Positions 1,889 to 37,658 of a stretch of DNA of 59,551 nucleotides are shown piece after piece (position 1 is the stretch's first letter; every line of letters begins with the position of its first letter). This DNA comes from Bacteroides sp. Lineage in GTDB: Bacteria > Bacteroidota > Bacteroidia > Bacteroidales > Muribaculaceae. The notes below the pieces were generated by a model. The model had not been told where the DNA came from and made no database searches. It worked only from the letters and a program-made list of their open reading frames with translations. Position numbers and translations under genes: made by a program. The stretch lies in NCBI GenBank assembly GCA_014801535.1, contig JAAVEA010000005.1, forward strand, positions 1 through 59,551, written 5' to 3'.

Positions 1889-3507
1889 ATAATCCTTTTG
1901 ATTACATACCGAGTGCGGAGTGTGAGGAGGCTTTCAGTAAGTTGGTGGCTCGCGCGGAGACCTTGAAAGGGAGCAGTAGGCCTGAGGACATCAATTTCTG
2001 TCGCGAACTGGAGGAGGGGAAGATGCTCGGTGTGCTGATTGCAAAGGATAAGGAGGGAGCGAGTCATACTTTGTATGCCTTCTCCGGACAATTGGGCGAC
2101 CGGGGTTTTCATTTCCCGGGATTTGTGGAGCCTGTTTTCGATTACCTTCAGCCCACTGGATATTTCAAAACAAAGGAGAGAGAAATTTCTCAACAGAACA
2201 GAGATATTACCCTCTATGAGGAGGAGACCTTGGGCCGGATAAACGAGGAATATGAACAGGCAAAAAGGAGATATGATGCTGAATTATCGGAATATAGGGA
2301 GAAGTTTCGCCTGTCGAAATTGGAAAGAAAAGCACGTAGGGAGTCCGGATTGGCAGATGAAGCTGAGTTGGCTTCAATGATAAGGCAGAGTCAGTTTGAG
2401 AAAGCGGAACTCAACCGACATAAAAAGAGATTGAAAGCGGAACTCGAACCGTTTGAAAGCAAACTTAAGGAAGCTCAGTCTCATCTGGCCTCACTTAAAG
2501 AGAGACGCCGTTCCGATTCGGAAGCTCTGCAGGATTGGCTATTTATAAATTTCAGATTGCTCAACGCACGCGGAGAATGGAAGAGCCTTAAAGAGATCTT
2601 TGCTGAAACTTCCTTGAAGATACCACCATCGGGCGCAGGGGAATGTTGTGCTCCGAAATTGTTGCAGTCTGCCTATCTGCAGGACTGGCAACCGGTGGCA
2701 ATGGCTGAATATTGGTATGGAAAGCCGAAAGGAGGAGAGGTACGGAGGCACGGTGAATCTTATCCGGCGTGTCGTGGCAAATGTATCCCCGTGTTGAGCT
2801 GGATGCTTCAAGGTCTTCCCATTCATCCTCCGATTGAAAATGAAAGCCATTCGATTAAAACCCCTGAGCCGGAGATTATATATGAAAACCGCTGGTTTTG
2901 TGTAGTCAATAAACCGAGCGGGATGCTTTCCGTGCCGGGTAAAGGGCCTGCCATCTCCCTCCAGAAATGGCTTGAAGAGAAATATGGGCCTGAGAGGAGC
3001 GTAAAACTCGCTCACAGGCTCGACCAAGACACTTCAGGTTTGGTGGTGGCCACGTTCGGTGACCTCTCTTTCAAAGTGATGCAGTCTCTTTTTGCCCGAC
3101 GTAGAGTGAGGAAAACGTATATTGCTGACTTGGAAGGGGATTATGTATCCGGAGGCATCCCTGGAAAAGGACGTATCGAACTACCTCTTTCTCCCGATTG
3201 GCTCGACCGACCGCGTCAGCGGGTGGATCATGAAGGAGGGAAAGAGGCGGTGACGGAATATGAATTTGTAGCCGTCTCCGAAGGGCGTAGCCGGATAGAG
3301 TTTCATCCGCTCACAGGGCGAACCCATCAATTGCGTGTCCACTCAGCCTCAGAGTCAGGTCTTGGAATGCCGATAGTCGGCGACCGCCTTTATGGGAAAA
3401 GAGGAGGTAAAGCGACGGAACGGCTTCATCTTCACGCGAAGAAGATAGAATTTACCTTTCCGATAGATAATGAATATTATAGTTTTGAACTCCCTGTGCC
3501 GTTTTGA
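1885..3507 (+). CDS. RluA-family RNA pseudouridine synthase with long N-terminal extension
   Basis: The 540-residue protein converts uridine to pseudouridine in rRNA or tRNA. The C-terminal 210 residues are the catalytic domain. They carry the NKPSGMLSVPG strand, the AHRLDQDTSGLVV motif with catalytic Asp380, and the GRTHQLRVH motif near the end. Residues 100-220 are highly charged and predicted coiled coil; the first 330 residues are an extension seen in large Bacteroidetes members and not in E. coli RluA (about 220 residues). The start ATG overlaps the stop of the ORF6N gene by 4 bases, so the two are likely translationally coupled. The exact target nucleotide cannot be assigned. Confidence 0.88.
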   Translation: MNNPFDYIPSAECEEAFSKLVARAETLKGSSRPEDINFCRELEEGKMLGVLIAKDKEGASHTLYAFSGQLGDRGFHFPGFVEPVFDYLQPTGYFKTKEREISQQNRDITLYEEETLGRINEEYEQAKRRYDAELSEYREKFRLSKLERKARRESGLADEAELASMIRQSQFEKAELNRHKKRLKAELEPFESKLKEAQSHLASLKERRRSDSEALQDWLFINFRLLNARGEWKSLKEIFAETSLKIPPSGAGECCAPKLLQSAYLQDWQPVAMAEYWYGKPKGGEVRRHGESYPACRGKCIPVLSWMLQGLPIHPPIENESHSIKTPEPEIIYENRWFCVVNKPSGMLSVPGKGPAISLQKWLEEKYGPERSVKLAHRLDQDTSGLVVATFGDLSFKVMQSLFARRRVRKTYIADLEGDYVSGGIPGKGRIELPLSPDWLDRPRQRVDHEGGKEAVTEYEFVAVSEGRSRIEFHPLTGRTHQLRVHSASESGLGMPIVGDRLYGKRGGKATERLHLHAKKIEFTFPIDNEYYSFELPVPF

Positions 3508-20841: not shown

Positions 20842-21894
20842 TCATTTTACAGGGATTAGCCTGGCTTTCTCATTATTATATGCCGAAGCAGTCGAACCGG
20901 CGGGGGCATAGAAGTAGGTAGCATCGCAGACAGTATATTTCTTTCCATTGTAAACGAGATAATCTCCTTTCTCCGAACCATCGGTGATGGCTACGGCTGC
21001 CGAAAGGTGCCCCGGATATGAGACAAGAGCTGTTTCGAGCCCGAGAATGTCTTTTACAAGATGAGAAAAATTTATGGCATGGTCCTCACAGTCGCTATAA
21101 GGGTAATACCAGCTTTCATCCATGAAGAAGGTGCGGTCTTTACCCCAGATCACATCGTCATATTCATACGGGAAGCTTTGAGCCACACGCAACATGAGGT
21201 CGACGGCTTCATATTGCGTCAGCCCCTTCGCAGCCTCACGCAACGTCGGATATACCTCCTTTCTTATCTCCTCGCTTGTGGGAATCTCCGCATGAGCCGA
21301 CCAGCGCGAATCTTCTGATTCTCCGACAGCCGCGTTCGGATAATCTCCGAAAAAGACGACCAGATTCTGATTGGTTGTGACATTCAGAGTCAGTCCGGGA
21401 TGGTTGTAAACCTCGACCGTACGTTTCTTTCCCGGTTTGAAATCAAGATTTGGGAGACGATCAATTGCAAGACTCATGCGTTTCTCTCCGGGGGTGCTGA
21501 AATCACATATTGAAACAAGGCCTTTCGGTCGGGTGTAGGCATAATACCAGCCGTTGTCGAGTTTATAGCGGGCACGGGCATAGAAAGTGCCGGTGCTGCT
21601 GAAGGCCAGATGCAGCTTGCCTCCCTCCTGTTCATAAACAAACCTGATGTCATAGCCCGATTGATTGAGAAGATATCCCATAAGAAGGGTCTGCTCATTG
21701 GAGCCGGGTGATGTAAGAGCCGTGGCAACGGCGTCTACATATAGAATGTAATGCCAATCCGGCAGGTTGAGCTGATCGCGCACTTTAAGGCATCCGTTGA
21801 TCAGATTGTTAGTATTTTTCCCGGATAAGGTTCTCCATCCTTGGGCAAAGCCTTGTGAGTTACGTGAGGTGATTCTGAATGTGTATTTAATCAC
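20842..21894 (-). CDS. Transglutaminase-like cysteine-protease-fold protein, cytosolic form
   Basis: The protein has 350 residues. The C-terminal part carries a transglutaminase-like triad: Cys269 in YSDCEDHAINFSHL, His296 in SYPGHLSAAV and Asp324 in VCDATYF. The same DCED..PGH..D layout occurs in the secreted protein at 35019-36518, so the two are paralogues. The N-terminal 200 residues are a beta-rich region with no family I recognise. The start is a GTG at 21894 with AAAGGA about 12 bases upstream. An in-frame TGA lies just before that, so no signal peptide can be added. Function unknown; peptidase or cross-linking activity is inferred from the fold. Confidence 0.78.
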   Translation of the reverse strand: MIKYTFRITSRNSQGFAQGWRTLSGKNTNNLINGCLKVRDQLNLPDWHYILYVDAVATALTSPGSNEQTLLMGYLLNQSGYDIRFVYEQEGGKLHLAFSSTGTFYARARYKLDNGWYYAYTRPKGLVSICDFSTPGEKRMSLAIDRLPNLDFKPGKKRTVEVYNHPGLTLNVTTNQNLVVFFGDYPNAAVGESEDSRWSAHAEIPTSEEIRKEVYPTLREAAKGLTQYEAVDLMLRVAQSFPYEYDDVIWGKDRTFFMDESWYYPYSDCEDHAINFSHLVKDILGLETALVSYPGHLSAAVAITDGSEKGDYLVYNGKKYTVCDATYFYAPAGSTASAYNNEKARLIPVK

Positions 21895-23809: not shown

Positions 23810-25945
23810 ATGGCAACATTAGAGAAAATCAGAAGCAAATCGGGCTTGCTGATCGTGGTGATAGGCTTGGCACTCCTTGCCTTCATCGTCGGTGACGCCC
23901 TGACCAACAGCCGTAATATCTTCGGCGACCACACTACGGTTGCGAAGGCCGGCTCTGCTAAAATCGACATTACCGAATATCAGCAGAAACGAGAGGAACT
24001 CAACCGCCAGCTTGAGGAGGCACGTCGCCAGAATCCGGCAAGCGTGGCAAATTTTGACACTCAGACTCTTCCGGAGATGGCTATACAGCAGCTCATTCAG
24101 GAAACTCTTCTCCTGAATGCGGCAGACAAGGCTGGAATTCAGGTTACAGGCAACCTGCTCCGTTATTATATGCTTGAGAATCCTGGCAATCAGGATGTGA
24201 TGCGTCTGGTGCAGCAGCTCAATCAGGCAGGTCTCGCAGTGCAGACTCCGCAGCAGGCGTATGAGTTGATTTTCAATCCCAAACGCAATGGTATGACCGA
24301 TGCGCAGATGGAACCCTATCAGCGCCTCTGGCTCTCTGTAGAGAACAGCTCTAAAGATGATATAGCCCGCCAGATATACGCGCGTCTTCTCCAGAAGAGC
24401 GTGAAGGCTAACGAACTTGACAAGAAAGCTCTTTATAACGATTATGTAAACACAGCTCAGGTTGAGTTGGCATTCCTTCCTTACGGAACACTCGATGCAA
24501 AGGAATATCCTGTGAGCGAGGCCGACCTCAAGAAGATCTACGATGAGAAGAAGAACGATTTCAAGGTTTATGAAGATACCAAAGATGTAAGCTTCATAGC
24601 AGTGAGTATCGCCCCTTCCAAGAAAGATCAGGACGATTGCCGGGCTCTTGCGGAGAAAACTGTAAAGGCTCTTTCCGACAGTGCTTCGCAGCTTAGCAAA
24701 GATCTGAAGAAAGATGGCGTGATTCTCACTCACCACGCTCTCCGCGGATCTGATCTTCCGGCAGGAGCGATGAAAGAGTTTATTCTTAACGGAGCCAAAG
24801 ACAGCGTGAAGCTTGTAAGCCAGAACATGCAGGGCTTCACTGCGGTGCGCGTGACCGGTCGTGAATCTCAGGTAGATTCAATTCAGGTGAATGTAGTGAT
24901 GGCAGCAACCGTAGACCTTGGTAAGAAGGTTCTTTCTCAGCTTAACTCCGGTCTGCCCGCTGATTCTATCACTGTACGTTTCTCACCCGACAGCGTTGTT
25001 CCCCAGCTTAACCAGTGGATACCTCTTTACACAGCGCAGGGCGCAACCAACGCTCTCCCCAAAGAGACTCTTGACAGCCTGGTGAATGCAGGTGGTAAAT
25101 TTATCTCCATCAACGAAGGCGCACAGGGTATGGTGATGGCTTCTCTGGTGAAGCAGAATGCTCCCGTCACCATCTATGAATATGACGAGGTTAATTATGT
25201 TCTCGGTCCGAGCACAAAGACAGTAAGCGATGAGCGCACTAAACTTGAGAAATTCCTTGCCTCCAACACTAATGCGAAAGACTTTGCCAAGAATGCGGAA
25301 AAGGCCGGTTATACAGTTCAGCGCTATAGCCTCACCCAGAGCAGCCCGGCAGTTCCCCGCATGGCTGGCATGAACGCTTATTATCCTGAAAGCCGTCAGG
25401 TGGTGCGCTGGGTAATGATCGATGGCAAACCCGGAGAGGTAAGCCACATCTATGAGGCAAAGAGTGCGACCAACCCCGTGCTTTATGCAGCGGCAGTTGA
25501 AAGCGCATACGATGACTACACTCCCCTCAGCAATCCCGACGTGAACGAATATCTTACCGAGTATGTTCGCCGTTCAAAAGCAGGTGATAAGCTCGTGGCG
25601 AAATACAGCAAGAACACTCAGAGCATCCAGACAGCCGCACAGGCTATGGGCGTTGAGGTGAAAACCATAGATAACTTCCGGTTCGGTCAGGCGGCAGGTG
25701 TGGCCGATGCAGCTATCATGGGTAAAATCAACGGTACAAAAGCTGACAAGAAGGTGATGATTGTGAAGGGTGAAGGCGGTGTATATGTTTATCAGGTTAT
25801 GGGTAAGAAGAAAGAGAACTTCCCCTATAACGAGGAGCAGTATGCACAGCAGTATATGCAGCAGATCAATCCTAATCTGATTCAGATGCTCATGGGCAAT
25901 TCAAGAATCAAGAATAATATCTATAAGTTCGAAGCCGGCGATTGA
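23810..25945 (+). CDS. ppiD: PpiD/SurA-like peptidylprolyl isomerase, membrane-anchored
   Basis: The 711-residue chaperone or isomerase has a single N-terminal membrane anchor (GLLIVVIGLALLAFIVGDAL) and a periplasmic body. Residues 35-200 form the SurA_N-type helical chaperone region (TEYQQKREELNRQLEEARRQ and following). The central part should hold the parvulin-like segment, though its sequence is diverged. Bacteroidetes have one such long protein. It probably folds outer-membrane and secreted proteins. Codon use is more biased than in the neighbours, suggesting high expression. A strong terminator follows. Confidence 0.82.
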   Translation: MATLEKIRSKSGLLIVVIGLALLAFIVGDALTNSRNIFGDHTTVAKAGSAKIDITEYQQKREELNRQLEEARRQNPASVANFDTQTLPEMAIQQLIQETLLLNAADKAGIQVTGNLLRYYMLENPGNQDVMRLVQQLNQAGLAVQTPQQAYELIFNPKRNGMTDAQMEPYQRLWLSVENSSKDDIARQIYARLLQKSVKANELDKKALYNDYVNTAQVELAFLPYGTLDAKEYPVSEADLKKIYDEKKNDFKVYEDTKDVSFIAVSIAPSKKDQDDCRALAEKTVKALSDSASQLSKDLKKDGVILTHHALRGSDLPAGAMKEFILNGAKDSVKLVSQNMQGFTAVRVTGRESQVDSIQVNVVMAATVDLGKKVLSQLNSGLPADSITVRFSPDSVVPQLNQWIPLYTAQGATNALPKETLDSLVNAGGKFISINEGAQGMVMASLVKQNAPVTIYEYDEVNYVLGPSTKTVSDERTKLEKFLASNTNAKDFAKNAEKAGYTVQRYSLTQSSPAVPRMAGMNAYYPESRQVVRWVMIDGKPGEVSHIYEAKSATNPVLYAAAVESAYDDYTPLSNPDVNEYLTEYVRRSKAGDKLVAKYSKNTQSIQTAAQAMGVEVKTIDNFRFGQAAGVADAAIMGKINGTKADKKVMIVKGEGGVYVYQVMGKKKENFPYNEEQYAQQYMQQINPNLIQMLMGNSRIKNNIYKFEAGD

Positions 25946-26012: not shown

Positions 26013-26107
26013 CCTCTTTATAATAAATACTTTTTATGGTGCAAAAAGATTAGATGTTAAAAATAATCCGAAGTTTGCTAAAATTATGAAATATAGAAAT
26101 TTTTGAC

Positions 26108-26115
26108 TATTTTTG
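26108..26115 (+). promoter_or_regulatory. -7 promoter element TATTTTTG (CHASE2-caspase operon)
   Basis: TATTTTTG fits TAnnTTTG and lies 98 bases before the ATG at 26214. It supports that ATG, not the downstream TTG, as the start of the operon's first gene. Confidence 0.45.
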
Positions 26116-26213: not shown

Positions 26214-26459
26214 ATGAAACGCCGCTCCCGACATAATTCAACCTCATCATTCTTAGATGCCGGAATGACTACCGGAATTAAGGAGGAAGGAAATGGTGTG
26301 AATTACTGTGAAAATGTGAAAAGTGATTTTGGGGAAGCAGGTGAGAAGGCAAAAGAAAATATATATCCTAATAACACTAACTTGCAAAGTATTGGTAATA
26401 AGGTAATTACCCCCCCCCCGAAAATGATAAGTCGCGTAAGCGGAAAGCAATCTTACTGA
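26214..26459 (+). CDS. 5' segment of the CHASE2 gene, out of frame with the rest
   Basis: An 81-codon frame starts MKRRSRHNSTSSFLDAG after a promoter and a 90-nt leader. The segment is polar and disordered, as a cytosolic tail would be. It runs into a run of ten C (26410-26419) and stops 40 bases later. One extra C, or two fewer, would join residue 67 to the frame that continues ENDKSRKRKAILLILTKSLG into the CHASE2 protein, supplying the basic anchor before its first membrane helix. I read it as the true N-terminus of that gene in an off state, or a sequencing slip in the homopolymer. Confidence 0.6.
   Translation: MKRRSRHNSTSSFLDAGMTTGIKEEGNGVNYCENVKSDFGEAGEKAKENIYPNNTNLQSIGNKVITPPPKMISRVSGKQSY
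26410..26419 (+). repeat. C10 homopolymer tract
   Basis: Ten consecutive C bases inside the coding segment. It is the classic sequence for slipped-strand mispairing. With C10 the two halves of the gene are out of frame; C11 or C8 would fuse them. Confidence 0.8.
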
Positions 26460-26461
26460 TT

Positions 26462-27589
26462 TTGACCAAATCCTTAGGAATAACCGGTCTTGCTTTTTTA
26501 CTATCATTTCTTATTTCCTCACCCTTCGCGGCTACAATATCGACTCTTTTTTCATCATCTGAAAAGAGCGACTTCGTCATGTCAGATCTCTTCTATCAGA
26601 TAGCCGACAACCGTCCGGTGCGCGTCTTTGATGACCGGATGGTGATTCTTGACATAGGCAATTCCAAACGGGAGGAGATAGCAGAAGTGTTATCGGTCGT
26701 GTCGCTATGCGGACCGAAAGCCGTGGCGATAGATGTGAATTTTGAATTGCCGGGGGAAAGCGATTCACTATTGCTCGAATCCCTTTCATCCCTCCCTGCA
26801 CTCGTGCTTCCGTTAGGTGTGAGGCAGGAGGGAGAAAGATTCGCTGTTGCCGACAAACCCTTCTTTTATGATGAACTTAAGAATGTGAGCTACGGAGTGG
26901 TCAACTTTCCCACCGATCATCCGGGAGCCACAGTCAGGGAATATGCCAGATCTTTTCCAATGAAGGAAGGAGGGCGCTTACTGTCGTTTCCGGAAGCTGT
27001 TGCAAAACAGGCCGGATATAAAGTAGATCTGTCTGACGATACCCGTGGTGTGCCGACAGGAATCATCAGCTATCATTCCAAGGAAATCATGACAATCCCA
27101 TTCGATCAGCTTATTGATAGAGCTGAGGAACTTACTGATAAAATTGTCCTGGTCGGTACAACTGTAGAAGCCGGGGATGTTTATTCCATTCCTCTGCGCC
27201 GGGGAGTGTCGGGCCTTGAAATACATGCTTACTCACTCAGCACTATTCTCGACGGAGTGGAACTTGAACGGTTGCCCGGATATATAGCCACAATCATTGC
27301 TGTGGTGATATGTTTCCTTATGGTTCTTGGAGCCGTAACAATTAAATCCGGCATGAGGGGACTTATATTGAGGATAGCTCAGGTGTTGACACTTTATCTG
27401 CTTGTCAGAGTTGGTTATTCCATGTTTGTGGATCATAACATAGTCAGTGATTTTTCTCAGGCCATATTGATGATCGCCTTCGGTCTGTTTTCTGTGGATC
27501 TATGGAATGGCACTGTCGCCCTTATCGACATGATAAGGAAAAAAGTCATATCCCATAAAGAAAAGAGATTGGCTATGAAGAGAATATAA
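26462..27589 (+). CDS. CHASE2 domain sensor protein (main part)
   Basis: The protein has 375 residues if read from TTG 26462; the same frame is open back to 26402. A first membrane helix (residues 3-25) is followed by a periplasmic CHASE2 domain (about 40-265: DDRMVILDIGN, GPKAVAIDVNFELPG, DRAEELTDKIVLVGTTVEAGD, RRGVSGLEIHAYSLSTILDG). Three C-terminal membrane helices (275-360) and a short basic tail complete it. CHASE2 is an extracytosolic sensory domain usually joined to kinases, cyclases or CHAT proteases; here no output domain is attached. The TTG start would remove the RKRK anchor and part of helix 1, so the intact protein probably begins at 26214 through the C tract. First gene of the caspase operon. 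Confidence 0.82.
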   Translation: MTKSLGITGLAFLLSFLISSPFAATISTLFSSSEKSDFVMSDLFYQIADNRPVRVFDDRMVILDIGNSKREEIAEVLSVVSLCGPKAVAIDVNFELPGESDSLLLESLSSLPALVLPLGVRQEGERFAVADKPFFYDELKNVSYGVVNFPTDHPGATVREYARSFPMKEGGRLLSFPEAVAKQAGYKVDLSDDTRGVPTGIISYHSKEIMTIPFDQLIDRAEELTDKIVLVGTTVEAGDVYSIPLRRGVSGLEIHAYSLSTILDGVELERLPGYIATIIAVVICFLMVLGAVTIKSGMRGLILRIAQVLTLYLLVRVGYSMFVDHNIVSDFSQAILMIAFGLFSVDLWNGTVALIDMIRKKVISHKEKRLAMKRI

Positions 27590-27753
27590 ACATAAGTAGC
27601 ATAAATAAAATAGTTAGTGGATTCGGGAATCTGCAGACGCCACATGCGAACATCCATGCATCGACCGATAATATAGATTATTCTATGAGTGATACTTAAG
27701 AGGAAATATGAAACTATATAATCAAACTGTCAATAATAGTAAAAGAAAATAAT

Positions 27754-28629
27754 ATGAGAATCGTGAAAGGAATAAAGATAATGAAACAACTACTGTTGAT
27801 CATTGTGTTAATGGCATCCGGCATTAACACTGCGATGGCCCACTACAGTCTTTTTACAGTTTCGGGAGATGTGCGTGTGGAGAGTGGCGGTAAGACAGTA
27901 AAAGCCACCAAGGGACAAGCTGTAAAGGCCACAGACCTTATTATTATTCCACAAGGAGGAAAGGTTGAGATTTTGAATGATCTTGACAAGAGGGTCTATA
28001 CTTCAATAAAGCCTGGTAAGATCTCCGTGACTAAGCTCATGATAGAGGCTCGTGGTGTGGCTGCCGATAATGGAGCCAACGTTGCATCCAGAATGAATCT
28101 CGGCCGCAAGACTCCAAAAGGATCGGAAAAGGTATATGTAGAAAAAGGGATGGTGCGCCGTTCGCTCGCAACGTATGATCCTGAAGGAGAGAATATGGAG
28201 ATGAATGCCGAGACCTTAGGGAGATATGTGGCGTCGAGAATTTCAGAAGGTTCTCTTTCGTCAGGAGAAGATGCACCGGTTCCTGTGGAGAGCAAACGTC
28301 TGCCGGAAGGTGGACTCAGTTTCAAGATGGAGAATACATTGCAGTTTCCGATATATTTCAATATCATAAAAATCACCAGGGGGAGCAAGGATGATGTTAA
28401 TATCTCTCCCCTGGGCCAGCCGGCAGGAAGTTATGTTGTGCTTCCATCGCAGACACTATCAAGAGAACATTTCCCTATGCTCGATGAGAGCGAAGAGCAG
28501 ATTCTGGTTATGACCAATTGCCAGTATGATGTGGATAAGGTGATTGAGGAGATAGTGAAGGCACTTAATGATCCGGCCCTATCCATAAGCAAAGACTCAT
28601 CATTGCCGGTATATATTCATAAAATCTGA
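27754..28629 (+). CDS. Secreted FecR-like / DUF4384-like protein
   Basis: About 291 residues; the signal peptide MKQLLLIIVLMASGINTAMA begins at Met10 (27781), which is the likelier start. Residues 33-95 resemble a FecR-type beta domain (VSGDVRVESGGKTVKATKGQAVKATDLIIIPQGGKVEIL). Residues 190-270 resemble DUF4384 (LSFKMENTLQFPIYFNIIKI..PAGSYVVLPSQTLSREHFPM), a domain often found beside bacterial caspases and kinases. Periplasmic. The 164-base gap after the CHASE2 gene holds no clear promoter. Exact function unknown; a scaffold or adaptor is my guess. Confidence 0.72.
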   Translation: MRIVKGIKIMKQLLLIIVLMASGINTAMAHYSLFTVSGDVRVESGGKTVKATKGQAVKATDLIIIPQGGKVEILNDLDKRVYTSIKPGKISVTKLMIEARGVAADNGANVASRMNLGRKTPKGSEKVYVEKGMVRRSLATYDPEGENMEMNAETLGRYVASRISEGSLSSGEDAPVPVESKRLPEGGLSFKMENTLQFPIYFNIIKITRGSKDDVNISPLGQPAGSYVVLPSQTLSREHFPMLDESEEQILVMTNCQYDVDKVIEEIVKALNDPALSISKDSSLPVYIHKI

Positions 28630-28690
28630 CAAAGGGGGAATCTAAATTGATTTTGAACACTTACTTAGCTAAAAATTTAAATAACATATT

Positions 28691-30784
28691 ATGAATGGCA
28701 AACGATTACTATTTGGTCTGATGTTCGGAGGGCTGATGCTTTCCGGAACCGTATTCTCCTTTGCACAAGAGGAAGATGTGGAAGAAGGCAATACGTCATA
28801 CATATTCAAACGTTCACAACCGGTCCGCTCCATAGAGACGTATCTTACCACTGTTTATTCTACCGATGGAGTTAATGTGAATACATTTCGCGGGGACATA
28901 CTGCATAAAGGTAAAGACAGTGTCACATATTTCAAAGTAAACCCGGCCGGGGTGAATTTCGGGATTGTTACAAAGAATAAAAAGGGGGAACGTTCTGCTA
29001 ACATTTATCATGCCTATAAAGATGAAATTCATCTGAATAAATTCGATACCAAACGTTATGGCACACCGACAGCCCTCGATTACACACCGGATGCCAGATT
29101 TATCGTGGTAGCCACCGACAGAGGCATCTTTTTTGTAGAGCCAAAGAAGTATCAGCCTGTGTTCCATATACAGAGTGTTCCTTTCGCTGTTGAGGAGATG
29201 GCATTCAGTCCCAACGGATATTTCCTCGCCGTGAAAAGCGGAGAAGAGGTGATTATCTATAATATTGATGAAAAGAAAATAAGGAAACGCATGAATGTGG
29301 GCGAGAAGATTAACGGAATGGCCTTCAGCCCGGACAGCAACGATTTCGCAGTTCTTACCGATGATGGTATCCTAACGCTTTACAACACCCGTTCTTTCGA
29401 ACTCCGCAAAATGATCGATGATCTTGGCGAGGGAAAATCTTTCGCCTATAACTTCGACGGTAAGTATGTGGCTGTAGTGAAAGACGACTCCGATATTGTC
29501 TTGGTGAATCTCCTTCGCGATTCTGACCGTGAATTATATTCAAGTCATAGAGGCGGAATCCGCGATGTTGAATTCATACTTGACAGCGAGGATAATACAA
29601 TCATTGTGATCCCGACCAATGATGCAGTGATTGCAAAAAGGCTACCCCACCTCAAACCGTTCTATAATAAGTTGATTTCAGATGAGGTGGAACGCAAGAT
29701 GGATGAATGGCTGAAGATGATGCCGGGCGAGACAATGGAACAGTATCGAGCCCGTGTCACCGACGAGAGCCGAGCCCGTCAGCGCCGCCTGTTCGAGGAT
29801 GAGATTGCCACCGGTTTTGCCGGAGATATGCTTGCCGGCGCCACAATGAGCCTCGGTAGCTATGACCGTGCAAACGAAGTGCTTGCATTGAACTTCGACA
29901 GTATGCCAACAATTTATCTGCCAGTGCCTGAAGCTGATGTGACCTCATTCCACAATGCCGGCGATCTGAAACTCTCTGATGTAATGTATGGAATCCTGCC
30001 CGACGACAGTTTCGAGATTGTGTATGCGAAAGTGACAAATAATGCAGACGGCAAGAGCTATATATACGACAACCTGATGCGCGCCGACCTGCAATATATG
30101 GCAGCCGACGATGCAATCTCCCTTGAGATGCTGCAGCAACAGCAGATGGAAGAGATGAAGCTTCAGGAACTGCGCCAGAAAGTGATGGATGAAGCCAAGA
30201 AAATGAATGTTATCTCCGACCACACCCAGATAGCTGTCGATTCGAAGGTTGTACCTGAATATGATGCCAACGGCGAAAAGATATTGAATTATCAGGTAAG
30301 CGTGACATATACGGTGGATCCTGAATTCTCTGCTCAGGAAGACTTTGGTCCCGGCAAATATCATATAAATGAATCGGGAGCCGCATCCTCAATGCTTAAC
30401 ATTGTCAAGGAAGCGTTTGAAGGAGAATTCAAGCAATATCTCAAGCCCGGGAAGAAGATAAAAGTGCGTCTGCTCGGAGCTGCAGATGCTACACCGATTA
30501 TGCGTGGAATCCCATATGACGGGGCATACGGTGAGTATGAGGAGGAGCCTGTGCGTATCGATAACCGTCTGAGCACGATCACAGTCACTACCAAGAATGG
30601 AATCAAGGAGAATGAACAGCTTGCCTTTGTGCGTGCGCTTGGAGTGAAAGACTATCTCAACCGCAATATAGCCGGCTTCAAAGATATGGACACAGACTAT
30701 GTGTATGAGGTGAACGTGAGCAAGGATAAAGGTAGCCAGCATCGCCGTATCACTCTTGAACTTACATTTATTGATGCATACTGA
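28691..30784 (+). CDS. Secreted beta-propeller protein with OmpA-like C-terminus
   Basis: The protein has 697 residues with signal peptide MNGKRLLFGLMFGGLMLSGTVFSFA. Residues 90-330 are WD40-like blades (TALDYTPDARFIVVATDRGIFFVE, EEMAFSPNGYFLAVKSGEEVIIY, NGMAFSPDSNDFAVLTDDGILTLY, FAYNFDGKYVAVVKDDSDIVLV). A helical stretch near 478-505 is rich in Gln/Glu/Met. The last 170 residues look OmpA-like (KIKVRLLGAADATPI.. NEQLAFVRALGVKDYL), so the protein may grip peptidoglycan. It ends 6 bases before the caspase gene. Likely a scaffold for the caspase in the periplasm; the domain reading of the C-terminus is an inference. Confidence 0.75.
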   Translation: MNGKRLLFGLMFGGLMLSGTVFSFAQEEDVEEGNTSYIFKRSQPVRSIETYLTTVYSTDGVNVNTFRGDILHKGKDSVTYFKVNPAGVNFGIVTKNKKGERSANIYHAYKDEIHLNKFDTKRYGTPTALDYTPDARFIVVATDRGIFFVEPKKYQPVFHIQSVPFAVEEMAFSPNGYFLAVKSGEEVIIYNIDEKKIRKRMNVGEKINGMAFSPDSNDFAVLTDDGILTLYNTRSFELRKMIDDLGEGKSFAYNFDGKYVAVVKDDSDIVLVNLLRDSDRELYSSHRGGIRDVEFILDSEDNTIIVIPTNDAVIAKRLPHLKPFYNKLISDEVERKMDEWLKMMPGETMEQYRARVTDESRARQRRLFEDEIATGFAGDMLAGATMSLGSYDRANEVLALNFDSMPTIYLPVPEADVTSFHNAGDLKLSDVMYGILPDDSFEIVYAKVTNNADGKSYIYDNLMRADLQYMAADDAISLEMLQQQQMEEMKLQELRQKVMDEAKKMNVISDHTQIAVDSKVVPEYDANGEKILNYQVSVTYTVDPEFSAQEDFGPGKYHINESGAASSMLNIVKEAFEGEFKQYLKPGKKIKVRLLGAADATPIMRGIPYDGAYGEYEEEPVRIDNRLSTITVTTKNGIKENEQLAFVRALGVKDYLNRNIAGFKDMDTDYVYEVNVSKDKGSQHRRITLELTFIDAY

Positions 30785-30789
30785 TACTA

Positions 30790-33411
30790 TTGGAGAGGAC
30801 TGAAATGAAAAAGGAGATTAGAAAGATAGTATTGATATTCTGTGTGCTGCTGTCGGTGATATTGTTGCCGGCCGTAGTGGCTTCTTCAATGCCGCAGGAT
30901 GTGGCTGAAGAAAATAACAGTGCTTCTGTCGATTCGCTTGCTATTGCCGAAACGGCACGACTGGTGGAAAAAGCTTCGGGAAGCTATAAGAACTTGAAAT
31001 TTATTCAATATGATGGTGTGACGGAAGAGGAACTATACCCACAGGTCATGACCGTATATGAAGATGTGCGCGATGCCTTGGCAGCACCGGCTCTTGAATC
31101 CTCCGACATGACACGCTTCAAAGGGATATTGCTCGACCTCAGCGATTTGATCCGTAAAGGCTCAATATATTATTCCAATAAAGGGGACATGGGAGAGATG
31201 ACCCGTTACGCCACGGTCTATGTGGATTTGCGCACAGATCCGATGATGAAGGATATGGCTTTCGGGAACACCGATGCCGGTCTGTATCCCTCGCTGGTGT
31301 ATTGTGCCGCTTCAGGAGCATACAACAGTGGTGATTTTGAAAAAGCTGTCGGCTATCTTGAGGAATATCTTAACACCGGGGCTACCGACCGACGGGAGCA
31401 GGTGTCGCTCTTCCTTGCACAGGCTTGTCTTAATGCTAAATGTCCGGAAAGAGGACTCAATAAGGTGATTTCAGCAACCGAACAATATCCGGCCAACTTC
31501 AATCTCCTGATGCTTGCTCTTCAGAATTGTCTGGAAAGTGGAGAGACAGACAAGATGCAGCCACTTCTCACGAGAGCATTGACAATGCGACCCGACGATG
31601 AACAGCTGCTTATGGCGCAGGGACGGCTTTTTGAGGATCAAGGAAATTACTCCTCAGCAATCGACATTTATCAGAGGCTTTATGAGCAGAAGCCCAATAG
31701 TCTGGTTGTGAACCAGCACCTGGCGCTTTGTTATTATAATCTCGGCGCCGATTATTACAACAGGTCTTTGATGGAGAATGATGAGAAAGTGTCAAAACGC
31801 TATTCCCGTCAGGCACAGGCATATTTCTCAAGTGCAGTGAGCAAGCTGGAAACCGTTGTAGAGAACGATCCCGCAAATCCAAAATATCTCAAAGCTCTTG
31901 CCATAACATACGGGTGTCTTGGCAATAAGCCACGTCTTGACGAACTGAACTTGCGCATGCAGGCGCTTGGAATGCCGGCTATGCCGATGAACGGCATGCC
32001 GGAGTCAATTGCCTATGCCGAGCAGAAGAGCGCCGGAGCGGCCAGTGCGTCAGGAGCAAACGTGCCGGATTTTCAGGAATTTGCAAGAGGATATGTGGAG
32101 AAAGAACTCGCCTCTTGGTCAAAGAGAGGAGAGTTTGAGAAAACGGAAGACTATGAGAAGCGTGTCAATAAAGACAATGTGTATCAGCAGTATCAGATGC
32201 TCTGTAAGAAAGCGGAAAAAGATTATCTACAGAAATATGCGGGGCGCTTAAGGATCAACGACCTCTCTCTTGAGCCCTACGATGTGGATAACGAAAGCTA
32301 TAAGATCAATTCCGCGATGGGACCGATTGTTGTGAAGGTGCCTTTGAAGAACAAAGAAGCAGAGGTTTTCAAGTCATCCTGGAGTTCCATTCAGGTTCGT
32401 AATCCTAAATATTTCATCAAGGACAATCACGTTGCCATAGCCTCGGTTGAACTTGTCACCTCCGGAGGAAAGACATACCGTTATGATGCTTCGCAGGCAG
32501 CAAACTATGATTTCACCGATGTGGCGATAGACATGCAGTCGTTCATCGCTCAAGGCAATTCCCGGCGCGACCGCACGGAATCGGCTCAAGGTTCCGGTTC
32601 AGGGAAATCTAAGGTGTTAAGGGCAAAGAGCGACGTGGACGAGAATATACCTCTTACAAGCAGGAAGGCAGAAAAGACCATAGCCCTCATAATCGCCAAT
32701 GAAAACTACAAGCAGGTGACTGATGTGGAATCGGCCCTCAACGACGGCGAGACATTTGCCAAGTATTGCACAATGACACTTGGTATTCCGGAGAGTCAGG
32801 TGATGCTCTATGAGAACGTGACATATGCTGAGATGGTGGGAGCTCTCCGCAAACTGCGGCAGCTCACAGATGCCCTTGGCGATGGTGTTGACGTGATTTT
32901 ATATTATGCCGGTCACGGATTCCCGGATGAGGGTAACAAAGAGGCTTATCTCCTTCCTGTCGACGGCGATGGTTTTACCTCAGCCACATCCTTCTCCCTA
33001 AAGAAACTCTATTCCGATTTAGGGTCGATGGGTGCGGATAACGTTATGGTGTTCCTCGATGCCTGCTTCAGCGGTGCTACGCGCGAAGGAGGTATGCTTG
33101 CCGAGGCACGCGGCGTGGCATTGAAACCCCGCGTATCCGATCCGGAAGGAAATATGTTCGTGCTGAGTGCGGCGAGCGATCAGGAGACCGCCCTTCCTTA
33201 TCGTGAAAAGAATCACGGACTCTTCACCTACTTCCTTCTCAAAAAACTTCAGGATACGAAGGGGAACGTAACCCTTAAGGAGCTCAGCCAGTATGTGGAG
33301 GAGATGGTCAAGAAAAACTCATTGACAGTGAATCAGAAGCTTCAGACTCCTCGCACAAGCGTATCGGGCCGTATGCGCGACACGTGGACAAGTAAACGCA
33401 TGCGCCCCTAA
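30790..33411 (+). CDS. Secreted TPR-caspase (peptidase C14 family)
   Basis: The protein has 873 residues: signal peptide in the first 35 residues (IVLIFCVLLSVILLPAVVASS), TPR-like helical repeats at about 150-400 (SLVYCAASGAYNSGDFEKAVGYLEEYL, LLMAQGRLFEDQGNYSSAIDIYQRLYEQ), a middle domain at 420-590 that includes EFEKTEDYEKRVN, then a caspase-fold protease from 628 (EKTIALIIANENYKQV). The catalytic dyad is His709 in LYYAGHGFPD and Cys759 in FLDACFSGAT. Later strands MFVLSAASDQETA and HGLFTYFLLKKLQD are also intact. Prokaryotic caspase relatives of this kind usually cut after Arg or Lys. Secretion and the tight operon imply an envelope process. Substrate unknown. Confidence 0.88.
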   Translation: MERTEMKKEIRKIVLIFCVLLSVILLPAVVASSMPQDVAEENNSASVDSLAIAETARLVEKASGSYKNLKFIQYDGVTEEELYPQVMTVYEDVRDALAAPALESSDMTRFKGILLDLSDLIRKGSIYYSNKGDMGEMTRYATVYVDLRTDPMMKDMAFGNTDAGLYPSLVYCAASGAYNSGDFEKAVGYLEEYLNTGATDRREQVSLFLAQACLNAKCPERGLNKVISATEQYPANFNLLMLALQNCLESGETDKMQPLLTRALTMRPDDEQLLMAQGRLFEDQGNYSSAIDIYQRLYEQKPNSLVVNQHLALCYYNLGADYYNRSLMENDEKVSKRYSRQAQAYFSSAVSKLETVVENDPANPKYLKALAITYGCLGNKPRLDELNLRMQALGMPAMPMNGMPESIAYAEQKSAGAASASGANVPDFQEFARGYVEKELASWSKRGEFEKTEDYEKRVNKDNVYQQYQMLCKKAEKDYLQKYAGRLRINDLSLEPYDVDNESYKINSAMGPIVVKVPLKNKEAEVFKSSWSSIQVRNPKYFIKDNHVAIASVELVTSGGKTYRYDASQAANYDFTDVAIDMQSFIAQGNSRRDRTESAQGSGSGKSKVLRAKSDVDENIPLTSRKAEKTIALIIANENYKQVTDVESALNDGETFAKYCTMTLGIPESQVMLYENVTYAEMVGALRKLRQLTDALGDGVDVILYYAGHGFPDEGNKEAYLLPVDGDGFTSATSFSLKKLYSDLGSMGADNVMVFLDACFSGATREGGMLAEARGVALKPRVSDPEGNMFVLSAASDQETALPYREKNHGLFTYFLLKKLQDTKGNVTLKELSQYVEEMVKKNSLTVNQKLQTPRTSVSGRMRDTWTSKRMRP

Positions 33412-33425
33412 AATAGTATCAACCA

Positions 33426-34295
33426 ATGAGAAAACTATTATTTCTATTGTTATCGCTGGCTCCGCTGTTCTGCCAGGGCGCCGATATTGTCGGTGTGACA
33501 GGTGAGGCCACATATTATGACGATGGCACAAAATCAAAAGTGGAATGTATGAGGCTTGCAGCCGAGCAGGCACGTATAGATGCTTTGGCGCGCAAGTTCG
33601 GCACCATAGTGTCGCAGGATATTCTTCAGACCGACCGTATCTCCGGAAACAAGGAGACCAACGATTTCCTTGCTCTCTCTTCAACAGAGGTCAAGGGTGA
33701 GTGGGTAGCTGATGATGGCGAACCTCAGTATGAGTTCTCACATGATGCCCACGATAATCTCATAGTGAAATGTAGTGTGAAAGGTAAAGCCAAGGAGATT
33801 TCCAACGAAGCTTCGGCATTTGAGTCAAGTGTGCTCCGCAACGGCACAGATCTCCGTCATGCCGACAATCTCTTTCGCGATGGAGATGATATGTATCTAT
33901 ATTTCAGAGGCTCGGTTGACGGGTTCATAAATGTGTTTCTTCAGGATGAACAGGGAGATGTGTATCTGCTGTTGCCATATCCCCGAGACACCAAGACACG
34001 TGTGCCGGTGAGCAAGGACCGCGACTACGTATTCTTCAGCCGTGAGCTTGATAAGGCAGGAGATAAATATGGAACTCCTGTTGAGGAGATGATTATGACG
34101 GCACCCGATAAGGCGGAATATAACAGGATGTATGTTATCTTTTCTCCCGACTATTTTTCACGCCCTGTAATGAATGCCAGTGCCGGACTTCCGGTGATGA
34201 AAAGCGATGACTTCAACAAATGGCTGGTCAAGACCCGGCGCAATGATCCTAAAATGGGAGTAAAGGTGATGAATCTCCAGATCGCTCCCAGATAA
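33426..34295 (+). CDS. Secreted LPP20/DUF4384 protein
   Basis: The 289-residue protein has signal peptide MRKLLFLLLSLAPLFCQGA. Residues 22-130 resemble LPP20-type domains (VTGEATYYDDGTKSKVECMRLAAEQARIDALARKFG). Residues 145-245 match DUF4384 (FRDGDDMYLYFRGSVDGFINVFLQDEQGDVYLLLPYPRD), which is associated with bacterial caspases. It begins 14 bases after the caspase stop. Probably a periplasmic partner or regulator of the caspase. Confidence 0.75.
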   Translation: MRKLLFLLLSLAPLFCQGADIVGVTGEATYYDDGTKSKVECMRLAAEQARIDALARKFGTIVSQDILQTDRISGNKETNDFLALSSTEVKGEWVADDGEPQYEFSHDAHDNLIVKCSVKGKAKEISNEASAFESSVLRNGTDLRHADNLFRDGDDMYLYFRGSVDGFINVFLQDEQGDVYLLLPYPRDTKTRVPVSKDRDYVFFSRELDKAGDKYGTPVEEMIMTAPDKAEYNRMYVIFSPDYFSRPVMNASAGLPVMKSDDFNKWLVKTRRNDPKMGVKVMNLQIAPR

Positions 34296-34314
34296 AACGG
34301 ACACATACTTTCAA

Positions 34315-34336
34315 TGAAGTTGTTTAAACAACTTCA
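34315..34336. repeat. Perfect 22-bp palindrome within the operon
   Basis: TGAAGTTGTTT followed directly by its complement, between two operon genes and followed by ATTATAACTTTAT. It may be an attenuating hairpin or an mRNA processing site. Confidence 0.5.
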
Positions 34337-34362
34337 ATTATAACTTTATAAAATTAAACAAA

Positions 34363-34989
34363 ATGAAAAGATTTATTGTGGGCCTCCTGGCCATTGTGAT
34401 GTTGCTTCCCCTCTATTCTGAGGCTGCAAACAAACAGCTTGAAAAAGCACGCAAGAAAGAGCTGAGTCAGAAACTTAAAGAGTATAAGAAAGGGAAATGG
34501 GAGATTATGGGCAGCCATACTCTCGACTATGCACTTGCCAACCATTTCGACCGTCTCAACACACTCGGTGACGACGCTCATGAAGTGGAAGGGATATCAA
34601 CACGCACAAAATCAAAAAATACCGGCAAGCAGGCCGCTATTAACAATGCAGTCGTAACATACGCACAGGAAGCAGGAAGCACCCTTCAGGGCCGTGTGGT
34701 GAGTGATATGAATGCCAACGGTGTTAATGTGGATGGCGAATTCGATAACTTCTATGCCGCTTACGAGCGTCTTGTTGAGAAAGAGATTCGTGGTGAGATG
34801 GAGCCTTCCTACACAATTATCCGCACTAATCCTGATGGAACATTTGAAATTCGCACCTATTTCATCATCTGTGAGAGCGCGGCAAGCAAAGCTCGTATGC
34901 GCGCGCTTGAAGAAGCTATGAAAAACTCGGAAGCGGCTCAGAAATATGCAGGGAAAATTTCCGGTTTCGTGAAAGAGGGTTTTGAATAA
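34363..34989 (+). CDS. Secreted small LPP20-like protein
   Basis: The 208-residue protein has signal peptide MKRFIVGLLAIVMLLPLYSEA, a Lys-rich helical stretch (residues 22-50), then an LPP20-like core (TRTKSKNTGKQAAINNAVVTYAQEAGSTLQGRVVSD.. FEIRTYFIICESAASKARMRALEEAM). Part of the caspase operon. Family membership is inferred from the alternating AA..NA helix and FEIRTYF strand; function unknown. Confidence 0.7.
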   Translation: MKRFIVGLLAIVMLLPLYSEAANKQLEKARKKELSQKLKEYKKGKWEIMGSHTLDYALANHFDRLNTLGDDAHEVEGISTRTKSKNTGKQAAINNAVVTYAQEAGSTLQGRVVSDMNANGVNVDGEFDNFYAAYERLVEKEIRGEMEPSYTIIRTNPDGTFEIRTYFIICESAASKARMRALEEAMKNSEAAQKYAGKISGFVKEGFE

Positions 34990-35018
34990 TCAATAATAAA
35001 AGGAGAGGAGAAACAGGC

Positions 35019-36518
35019 ATGAAGAGAGAAGTTATAATAGTATCAATTATGGCGGTAATGTTGACATCATCGGCCGCTATGGCGCAGGAAAAAAGAAAAT
35101 CGTTTGATGAGTTCCGTAAAGAGATACTTAACGGTTATTCCGATTTCCGCAAAACAATACTTGATCATTATGCCGACTTTCTCAACGGGGAATGGCACGA
35201 ATATGAAAGTCTCAATGGAGAACGTAGAGACAAGACCCCTAAGCCATCGAGGGTTCCGAGTGTGGAGCCCTCGACTCCCGCTCCTTCTCAACCGGTCCTT
35301 CCGCAACCCACGGTGCCGGACCACGGCAAACACACGCAGGAACCCAAGAACCCCTCTCCGCTTCCCGAATCCTCGGCAAAGCCGGCCCCTGCGGTGGCGC
35401 GACAAGGAGAGGAAACATTTGAGTTTTACGGCCTTCCGATGACCCTTCCCCAAGTGGATTTCAATATATCCTATATGTTATCCTCCCCGTCCGACTATGC
35501 ATCGCAGTGGAAGGCACTCGACAAAGCAGGAACAGCAAAACGACTCACTCCTGCAGTGAAGAAATTAGTCGAAAAGACGGGGTTGAACGATTACCTTACA
35601 TATGAGTTGATAAAGGCATATATAGATGCCAAATTCCCGCAGGCCGACGCTTCCTCAAGACTGTCGGCAATACATTATCTCCTTGCGAATATGGGCTATG
35701 ATGCCCGAATAGCCATGTCGGGCAACAGCACCCCTCTTCTGCTCCTTCCCTTCAAACAGACTATATATGCCCGTAACTATTTGATTATAAACGGAGATAA
35801 ATATTATGTTTTCGCTCCGGAAGGGTTTGATTATAACCGACTTGGAAGAGAGGGTATCCGCACATGCACACTCCCCAAGGATGCTGAGAAAGGGAATAGA
35901 TTCGACCTTGTCCTGGGAGAACTGAAGATACCCTTCAGTCCCAAAAGCTTTAATTTTGAATACGGACCGCTCAAACTTACAGGCGAGGTGAATGAGAACC
36001 TTATGCCCATCCTGTATCATTATCCTCAGATGCCTATTGGTGATTATGCCGTCTCATCTCCCGACCCCCGGCTTCGTCATCATCTTGTGGAGCAAGTGAA
36101 AAGCCAGATCGGGTCGATGGATGGAGATGAAGGTGTTGAAACGTTGCTTAACTTTATGCACAATGTGTTTGAATATGCCACAGATGATGAATTCCACGGC
36201 TTCGAGAAACCATATTTCCTGGAAGAAACACTCTATTACCCTAAGAATGATTGTGAGGATCGCGCTATATTTTACACCTATTTCCTATGGTATGCCTTGG
36301 GGAAAGAAGCCCAGTTAATATCATTTCCCGGTCATGAGGCAGCTACTGTAAAGCTTGATAAACCGGTGGATGGAACGTCTTATAATTTTTCGGGGAAGAC
36401 ATTTTTCATCTCCGACCCCACGTTCATAGGTTCGCATACGGGAATGGTTATGCCGATGTATAAGATGGAGAAGCCGAAAGTGGACTATACTTTTTCTAAA
36501 TCCGCGAATAATGATTAA
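35019..36518 (+). CDS. Secreted transglutaminase-like protein
   Basis: The protein has 499 residues with signal peptide through MLTSSAAMA (residue 22). After a helical segment there is a Pro/Ser-rich linker (residues 70-130). The C-terminal domain has the triad Cys412 in KNDCEDRAIFYTYFLW, His439 in SFPGHEAATV and Asp466 in ISDPTF. It is a paralogue of the cytosolic protein at 20842-21894. Transglutaminase-like folds in bacteria are mostly peptidases; a periplasmic peptidase or cross-linker acting with the caspase is plausible. It is the last gene of the operon, and its stop codon TAA is part of the next promoter element. Confidence 0.78.
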   Translation: MKREVIIVSIMAVMLTSSAAMAQEKRKSFDEFRKEILNGYSDFRKTILDHYADFLNGEWHEYESLNGERRDKTPKPSRVPSVEPSTPAPSQPVLPQPTVPDHGKHTQEPKNPSPLPESSAKPAPAVARQGEETFEFYGLPMTLPQVDFNISYMLSSPSDYASQWKALDKAGTAKRLTPAVKKLVEKTGLNDYLTYELIKAYIDAKFPQADASSRLSAIHYLLANMGYDARIAMSGNSTPLLLLPFKQTIYARNYLIINGDKYYVFAPEGFDYNRLGREGIRTCTLPKDAEKGNRFDLVLGELKIPFSPKSFNFEYGPLKLTGEVNENLMPILYHYPQMPIGDYAVSSPDPRLRHHLVEQVKSQIGSMDGDEGVETLLNFMHNVFEYATDDEFHGFEKPYFLEETLYYPKNDCEDRAIFYTYFLWYALGKEAQLISFPGHEAATVKLDKPVDGTSYNFSGKTFFISDPTFIGSHTGMVMPMYKMEKPKVDYTFSKSANND

Positions 36519-36608: not shown

Positions 36609-37658
36609 ATGGAAAAACAAGATAGCAAGCCGAAGCTAATCGGCATGACATTGGCCGAGCTTCAGGATGTGGCTTTCAGAGGCAAGATGCCTAAATTTGT
36701 CGGAAAGCAGTTGGCTGAATGGCTTTACGATAAGAAAGTGACTGACTTCGAGTCAATGGCCAATATATCTAAAAAAAACAAGGAATGGTTGGCAGCCAAC
36801 TATGAAATAGGAAGGACAATGCCGTCGCGCCAGTCGAAATCAAGCGACGGAACAGTAAAATATCTCTTCAATGTCGGCAACGGAAATGCGATTGAGTCGG
36901 TTTATATCCCGGATAAGGAACGGGCCACGCTTTGCGTGTCGAGTCAGGTGGGATGTAAAATGAACTGCTATTTCTGTGCCACAGGTAAACTCGGCTTTAA
37001 AGCCAACCTCACGTCTGCCCAGATAATTAACCAGATATTGTCGATTCCACCGGCTCCCGGCAAGGGAGAGGAACCGATGAATCCCCTCACCAATGTCGTG
37101 TTTATGGGGATGGGCGAACCTCTTGATAATTTCAAGGAGGTGGAGAAGGTGATCGAAATCATGACCGCACCATGGGGAATGGCCTGGAGTCCGAAACGGA
37201 TCACCGTCTCAACCGTGGGTAAACTGCCGCAGCTGAAAGAACTTCTCGACCGCACTCAGGTGCATGTAGCCATCAGTGTTCACACCGCCGACACTCCTCA
37301 GCGCGAGTCGATGATGCCGGCCCAGCGTGCCTTCCCGATTTCAAGCGTGATGAAGACTCTTTCAGGATATGATTTCTCACATCAGAGAAGGCTATCGCTC
37401 GAATATATAATGTGGCGCGGAGTGAATGATGATATAGCTCATGCCGATATGCTTGTCAAACTTATAGGTAATATCCCTTGTCGTGTGAATCTTATCAGAT
37501 TTCATGCCATCCCCGGTGTCGATCTTAAGCCATGCAGCGAGGAGAGAATGCTGATGTTCAGGAATCATCTCAATTCCAAAGGGATCACCGCAACGATAAG
37601 GGCATCGAGGGGAGAGGATATTGAGGCAGCCTGCGGAATGCTCGCAGCAAAAAAATAG
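36609..37658 (+). CDS. rlmN: 23S rRNA/tRNA adenine-C2 methyltransferase RlmN
   Basis: The 349-residue radical-SAM enzyme methylates A2503 of 23S rRNA and A37 of some tRNAs. The iron-sulfur motif CxxxCxxC is Cys116, Cys120 and Cys123 in QVGCKMNCYFCATG. Also visible are GMGEPLDNF and the C-terminal region ATIRASRGEDIEAACGML, which bears the catalytic Cys near the end. Normal length. It is first in a string of same-strand genes running to 42116. Confidence 0.95.
   Translation: MEKQDSKPKLIGMTLAELQDVAFRGKMPKFVGKQLAEWLYDKKVTDFESMANISKKNKEWLAANYEIGRTMPSRQSKSSDGTVKYLFNVGNGNAIESVYIPDKERATLCVSSQVGCKMNCYFCATGKLGFKANLTSAQIINQILSIPPAPGKGEEPMNPLTNVVFMGMGEPLDNFKEVEKVIEIMTAPWGMAWSPKRITVSTVGKLPQLKELLDRTQVHVAISVHTADTPQRESMMPAQRAFPISSVMKTLSGYDFSHQRRLSLEYIMWRGVNDDIAHADMLVKLIGNIPCRVNLIRFHAIPGVDLKPCSEERMLMFRNHLNSKGITATIRASRGEDIEAACGMLAAKK

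Follow-up and report, generated by a model that had tools for sequence, protein, structure and literature searches.

An accessory TPR-caspase operon of Bacteroidales with predicted export signals and a poly-C tract in its CHASE2 sensor gene

What would a bacterial caspase do if it and almost all products encoded around it carried export signals, and why should the sensor gene at the head of such an operon be out of frame? To our knowledge, bacterial caspases have been studied mostly as cytosolic enzymes. Both questions are raised by a 59,551-nt stretch of DNA from Bacteroides sp. (Muribaculaceae; assembly GCA_014801535.1, contig JAAVEA010000005.1, positions 1 to 59,551; hereafter the window), in which seven genes of the forward strand, p1 to p7, encode a CHASE2 protein, a TPR-caspase, a WD40 propeller protein, a transglutaminase-like protein and three further products. 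An initial annotation had described these genes as one periplasmic device of sensor, scaffold, protease and effector; on the basis of the results below, its observation was partly confirmed and its interpretation is partly supported. We consider it reasonably probable that this is an accessory, horizontally moving Bacteroidales operon for an envelope protease module, in which the expression of the sensor is randomly switched in the group of the window.

The seven same-strand genes do belong together, as initially annotated, and gene neighbourhoods in related genomes revealed conserved linkage. We fetched 80 stretches (79 from relatives and one from the same genome) and built profiles for p1 to p7. 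A strong p4, the caspase gene, was present in 43 loci (the window and 42 others), accompanied on the same strand and within 11 kb by p3 in 43, p5 in 41, p6 in 41, p7 in 36, p1 in 17 and p2 in 17. The exact order p1 to p7 was observed in 14 of the 43 loci, with one truncated by a contig end after p6 and one with p2-p3 repeated; in some loci p6 precedes p3 and p7 is doubled. For the wider set, each species was represented by one genome, and the best 80 of the loci listed were taken, 28 of them on contigs already in the first set. Among these 80, a strong p4 was found in 71 loci, together with p3 in 69, p5 in 55, p6 in 46, p7 in 46, p1 in 20 and p2 in 18. With a threshold of E 1e-100, a survey of 111 genus genomes detected p4 and p3 in 44 each, both in 43, exactly one in 2 and neither in 66, and the two exceptions were a p3 cut by a contig end (G035, locus L074) and a caspase in pieces (G237). 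Relatives of p4 at E 1e-20 were found in 55 of the 111. Across the order, 198 genomes were covered and 46 had relatives of p7; 16 of 19 stretches around p7-like genes (L084-L102) had no caspase of this kind. Linkage by chance is excluded: p3 to p7 recur together across Bacteroidales, and CHASE2 with p2 is an optional front module. The notion of one device is well supported for p3 to p7, which are held together by neighbourhood, by the co-occurrence of p3 and p4 and by a domain that these two share. It appears that this front module also travels alone, as three loci (L169, L170 and L175) had a p7-like gene followed by CHASE2 and p2, with no caspase within the fetched stretch. Tandem duplicates of p7 were seen at the operon end in L073, L161, L164 and L165.

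Profile matches agreed with the initial annotation for CHASE2 in p1, the WD40 propeller in p3 and the caspase domain behind TPRs in p4. The open CHASE2 frame, p1 (26402-27589), matched the Pfam CHASE2 model at 69.7 bits (cut-off 26.3), with no output domain among its profile matches. The caspase domain of p4 (30805-33411; PF00656, 81.4 bits, cut-off 21.4) lies C-terminal to the TPRs, and its His/Cys dyad was invariant in 13 aligned members; among 82 frames of at least 800 aa, His was retained in 81 and Cys in 79. The dyad had been recognized correctly, and only its numbering changes: His704/Cys754 from ATG 30805, the previous 709/759 being counted from TTG 30790. Assignment of p4 to the EACC1-associated caspases (NF047832) was rejected, the match being 74.1 bits against a curated cut-off of 140. 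The same genome has a second caspase gene (L083, G000:C10, 8009-9490), with the caspase domain at the frame start and without the TPR part.

The propeller of p3 (28691-30784) spans residues 34-320 and is followed by a domain common to p3 and p4 (about 322-470 in p3 and about 415-575 in p4; hhalign probability 98.0%, E 2.5e-13). The putative OmpA-like end reported initially (about 520-697) is divergent. Its D/NxxLxxxR motif was invariant in 62 members. Of 30 C-terminal pieces of the family, 8 had a PF00691 match with an E value of 1 or lower (best 1.1e-4), but that of the window was not among them, and a profile comparison with OmpA domains of the same genome (the best five of eight OmpA loci) gave a hhalign probability of just 7.6%, although the right motif was aligned. 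A PDB sequence search with the p3 end had no OmpA among its matches, and the fold search of p3, its matches being taken up by the propeller, covered that part of the protein.

For p7 (35019-36518), residues about 304-499 were assigned a LapG/transglutaminase-like fold with a conserved Cys412-His439-Asp466 triad (a transglutaminase-like protein with such a triad had been noticed before), and a sequence search against solved structures returned nothing useful. Another p7-like gene, on the reverse strand 4.5 kb before the operon (20842-21894), shares 27% identity with p7 in its second half and has no Pfam match. The small products fared less well. DUF4384 was found in 31 of 32 p5 members (33426-34295 in the window, whose copy is 2 bits below the cut-off), at the threshold of E up to 0.1 used for all three small families, whereas LPP20, proposed for both p5 and p6, was matched by 0 of 32 and 0 of 26 members, respectively. 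This leaves p6 (34363-34989) putatively exported and without a known family. Similarly, the FecR label of p2 (27781-28629) found no support, with a match in 0 of 19 members, and its DUF4384-like label retains a weak match in 1 of 19, so that p2 is a putatively exported protein of unassigned family that accompanies CHASE2. A LapA-like retention module in p2 was rejected at E 0.14; domain-profile searches found neither a LapD-type receptor nor a LapA-type substrate among the seven products. As initially stated, all products except the sensor appear to have a signal peptide: judged by hydrophobicity, each of p2 to p7 has one signal-peptide-like N-terminal segment and no other, and p1 has four hydrophobic segments. 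A crude count of such N-terminal hydrophobicity across the family gave 25/38 for p1, 32/36 for p2, 79/88 for p3, 95/110 for p4, 82/86 for p5, 63/64 for p6 and 89/94 for p7. From these N-termini, p2 to p7 are predicted to be exported and periplasmic.

The start of the sensor gene required a more substantial correction. The CHASE2 gene had been drawn from ATG 26214, overlooking a homopolymer that places the sensor out of frame. As assembled, this ATG opens a frame of 81 codons (26214-26459) that traverses a C10 tract (26410-26419) and then stops, and CHASE2 lies in another frame, the two frames meeting at the tract. The CHASE2 frame itself is intact over 375 codons, with TTG 26462 as the sole ATG, GTG or TTG ahead of the first membrane segment. 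An N-terminus of like kind (M[KR]RxSRH...) was found in L104, L105, L107 and L108. We examined 30 of 37 CHASE2 places and identified a tract of at least C7 in seven: C10 in the window, C9 in G290, G305, G252 and G009, C8 in G001 and C7 in G025. In the assemblies, none of these seven copies is in phase with the upstream ATG, and the remaining loci are tract-free, some with the CHASE2 frame open from an ATG (for example, L106, L109, L110 and L118). In five of the seven copies the CHASE2 frame contains no ATG, GTG or TTG in the interval that begins at its last stop and ends 75 nt past the tract, and a full-length sensor would therefore need a change of frame; L105 has three possible start codons and the window has TTG 26462. 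In the 54 nt 3' of the tract, changes by codon position were 5, 2 and 9 (window/L104), 3, 1 and 6 (window/L105) and 2, 1 and 6 (L104/L105), a third-position bias with P 0.05 for window/L104 and 0.001 for the sum of the three non-independent pairs.

Tract lengths within species provided a further line of evidence. When the database protein P0011 (458 aa) was compared with the two gene pieces of G252 (L107/L138), 64 of 65 and 390 of 391 residues, respectively, were identical. Between the two parts P0011 has PP, corresponding to an in-phase C8, and G252 itself has C9. P0098 (71 aa, four members, MAG HDS71_04925) shares the N-terminus of P0011 and G252 and has the ending expected from C7. Thus, C7, C8 and C9, one for each frame, appear to be present in one species as judged by identity. 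In addition, the N-terminus of P0097 is 97% identical to that of the window, which has C10, and its ending is that of C7, pointing to two lengths in the window's species or a sister species. Eight other proteins (P0002, P0006, P0010, P0021, P0026, P0028, P0031 and P0032) have PP or PPP at a like place and were left uncounted because there was no near-identical DNA for comparison. A coding repeat with both in-phase and out-of-phase lengths in one species, the mark of a phase-variable locus, is found here, and the most plausible interpretation of the length differences is that the sensor is phase-variable.

Long C/G runs were also concentrated at this position. In 133 non-redundant loci (2.08 Mb; 28 of 161 loci were removed as duplicates), runs of at least 8 numbered 8 in 9.4 kb of p1 5' ends, 1 in the other 38 kb of p1, 3 in 751 kb of other system genes and 6 in 1,277 kb outside the system. 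Six of the eight at p1 5' ends are the tract in question; the other two are a run within the CHASE2 domain in L254 and one in L206 that precedes a promoter-like site seen by eye, and the C7 of G025 is below the 8-nt limit of this count. The corresponding Poisson value of 4e-16 is far too small because the loci are of common descent. The source genome has five such runs: two non-coding, the operon tract and two that are coding and in phase.

Several observations weigh against a switch at this tract. Three of the five within-species lengths (P0011, P0097 and P0098) were read from peptides and not from DNA, the in-phase form of the window's species is absent among the 96 database CHASE2 proteins, and the 33-member cluster of this species (P0001) starts after the tract. 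TTG 26462 in the window and an ATG in L105 could allow some CHASE2 to be made in any phase. The 198 nt (66 codons) before the tract, of equal length and open in the window, L104 and L105, have no third-position excess (18, 18 and 19), and the more distant pair L107/L108 has no bias in the 54 nt 3' of the tract (12, 13 and 10), its bias being present over 360 nt (25, 13 and 61). The tract copies are of common ancestry and their counts are not independent, and the finding of all seven out of phase (chance (2/3)^7 = 0.06) would also fit decay or recoding. Some C9 run was detected in 104 of the 111 genus genomes, which makes the tract less special. Finally, control of the entire operon family by the tract was considered and rejected, since CHASE2 is absent from 26 of the 43 and 51 of the 71 operon loci.

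Could the frame conflict be an assembly artefact or a dying gene? Homopolymers are error-prone and the genomes are metagenome drafts. The tract, however, occurs in seven species-level genomes, the third-position bias 3' of it was seen in three pairs, the CHASE2 frame is intact over its whole length and the endings of the predicted short proteins match whole-frame shifts, all of which makes this explanation very improbable. Slippage of ribosome or polymerase at the C tract, yielding a fixed low output of sensor with no switching, would account for the seven out-of-phase copies and for the C9 shared by four of them. Such programmed frameshifting would nevertheless have to proceed in different senses for C9 and for C10 and C7, and one species has the in-phase length of P0011 alongside two out-of-phase lengths. 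We regard it as unlikely, although less so than artefact or decay.

The operon also appears to be an accessory, mobile module, present or absent at one site. In the window it lies between a 711-aa gene (23810-25945), which has no NCBIfam match and which we take to resemble PpiD, and rlmN (36609-37658; assigned by TIGR00048). We compared 30 rlmN loci from the genus: the 711-aa gene adjoins rlmN in 21 (84-258 nt apart), p7 adjoins rlmN in 4 (the window, G290, G305 and G003), and neither arrangement was seen in 5. Three genomes with rlmN 92-95% identical to that of the window (G031, G244 and G010) show an empty site and lack a strong p3, G010 carrying a caspase of another kind, and three others (G009, G001 and G025) have the empty site beside rlmN and the operon elsewhere. 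In G019, a draft that is 60% complete, p4 is 82% identical to that of the window and rlmN just 73%. As other relatives show the reverse, this pattern suggests horizontal transfer.

How might such a module work? The scheme of sensor, scaffold, protease and effector was a fair inference from the domains. In our model, p3 would anchor the complex at the cell wall via its OmpA-like end, and p4 would dock on p3 via the domain common to both. The CHASE2 protein in the inner membrane, together with p2, may report a periplasmic signal, upon which the caspase p4 and the LapG-like p7 would cleave envelope proteins; metacaspases prefer arginine or lysine. In the ON phase the full sensor would be made, whereas in the OFF phase it would be missing or shortened, and downstream expression might be reduced by polarity. 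A switch of this kind would suit a function that pays at times only, such as surface processing or protection from phage or from neighbouring cells. Anchoring, docking, sensing, proteolysis and role are all predicted here from domain content and gene context.

With respect to that function, two possibilities were given the same tentative weight, each falling short of probable. One is an antiphage or anti-competitor device that would respond to envelope attack: p4 and p7 would then kill or incapacitate either the cell itself or its attacker, with random switching keeping the cost low. The accessory, patchy and mobile occurrence of the operon would fit such a device, as would a phase-variable tract like that in a presumably restriction-specificity-like gene of the same genome. 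However, PADLOC models recovered just a generic caspase (E 1.1e-10) and weak repeat matches (HEAT-ARM, 1.8e-4; PDC-M16B, 0.008) and no further match, no pore or nuclease gene is among the seven, and the caspase defence systems that we know of are cytosolic. The other possibility is surface or envelope processing, in which a signal would prompt the proteases to trim or free proteins of the surface or periplasm, much as LapG frees an adhesin, and phase variation would diversify the surface. A more speculative proposal, to which we give somewhat less credence than to either, is a wall-anchored periplasmic caspase cascade in gut Bacteroidales, with poly-C slippage arming the trigger in some cells only, at random. 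This would be a bet-hedged, signal-driven self-destruction or envelope defence, with different lineages having placed such tracts in different genes of the module (CHASE2 start, CHASE2 domain, WD40 scaffold and second caspase).

Tracts at several other places were observed, with phase given as assembled. G8 runs lie in CHASE2 of L254 (3975-3982, out of phase) and L227 (3969-3976, in phase); a C10 is present in a WD40 gene of an Alistipes draft (L222, 5614-5623), just behind the signal peptide and out of phase; and an out-of-phase C9 lies in a second caspase gene (L210, 19585-19593). L254 also has a non-coding C11 run upstream of the operon (3163-3173). In the source genome, in-phase G tracts occur at about 1501 in the restriction-specificity-like gene mentioned above (L270, G000:C24) and behind the signal peptide of a gene with no Pfam match (L271, G000:C27). 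Overlapping C9 matches were far above those of relatives in G277 (270), G293 (298) and G016 (299), which may be tract-rich genomes or reflect assembly effects.

Regarding the remaining features of the locus, the intergenic gaps from p1 to p7 are 194, 61, 23, 14, 67 and 29 nt, the first counted to a start at the third codon of p2 and 3 nt shorter from ATG 27781. The Bacteroidetes promoter consensus is TTTG, about 19 nt, TAnnTTTG. A promoter-like site of this type lies on the forward strand about 100 nt upstream of ATG 26214 (26085-26115; TATG, 19 nt, TATTTTTG), with one mismatch in the first part. The identical arrangement was found 5' of CHASE2 in L104, L105 and L106, and TTTG-N20-TAnnTTTG in L111 and L116; L107 had none at this position, and the scan missed the right stretch of L108. 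A sigma-70 scan was uninformative (28 matches vs 21.2 in shuffles). The draft assembly of the source genome amounts to 2.09 Mb at 65.6% completeness; the closest named database proteins are from 'Muribaculaceae bacterium', and near-relative contigs are labelled Muribaculaceae, Porphyromonadaceae or Bacteroides sp.

Parts of this system have precedents. WD40, TPR, CHASE2 and DUF4384 have been reported alongside prokaryotic metacaspases in the available text of two surveys (PMC3501461 and PMC7475262), and CHASE2 or DUF4384 is mentioned with caspase systems in what could be consulted of PMC8195603 and PMC7475262. According to the available part of PMC3501461, 14 of 217 metacaspase operons include OmpA and some N-terminal helices are possibly signal peptides, and therefore exported metacaspases near OmpA are not a new idea; Bacteroidetes is named there as one of four groups with several metacaspases per operon. 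The p1 to p7 operon is not described in that part of the survey, and no description of such an operon was found in the open-licence literature as judged by titles and abstract starts. The p4 protein resembles metacaspases and orthocaspases (Peptidase C14, PF00656) in its caspase domain, His/Cys dyad and DACxSG motif. It differs in its predicted export by the N-terminus and in its membership of a defined Bacteroidales gene set, which adds a putative WD40-OmpA scaffold as a separate protein, another protein with a cysteine triad and a putatively phase-variable sensor. The nearest scaffold is PG1058 of the type IX secretion system, which, as far as the consulted part of PMC5053529 indicates, is an exported beta-propeller protein with an OmpA_C-like end and a proposed outer-membrane scaffold, features also predicted for p3, but is a lipoprotein with TPR and CRD domains; p3 has none of these and has the caspase-shared domain instead. 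LapG, the transglutaminase-like protease with the LapD receptor, has the fold and Cys-His-Asp triad in common with p7, whereas the operon has no counterpart of LapD or LapA, and p7 is extended by additional N-terminal domains and is partnered with a caspase. Poly-C/G contingency loci of Campylobacter, Neisseria and other bacteria, in the accessible text of PMC11868660, likewise have a homopolymer in the 5' part of the coding region, with lengths spanning all frames in a species; the difference here is that the tract belongs to the sensor gene of an operon for a caspase. The same text names DNA inversions for phase variation in Bacteroides.

A role of bacterial caspases in the envelope becomes testable with this conserved gene set, which combines predicted export signals with a putative scaffold of its own and another cysteine-triad protein, and isolates carrying much of it exist: Odoribacter lunatus DSM 112344 has p3 to p7, and Xylanibacter rodentium has p3, p4, p5 and p7. 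Tract length would be a simple read-out in existing gut metagenomes. A poly-C switch would imply that sensor-plus and sensor-minus populations are each favoured at times, which may itself be a hint on the function of the operon.

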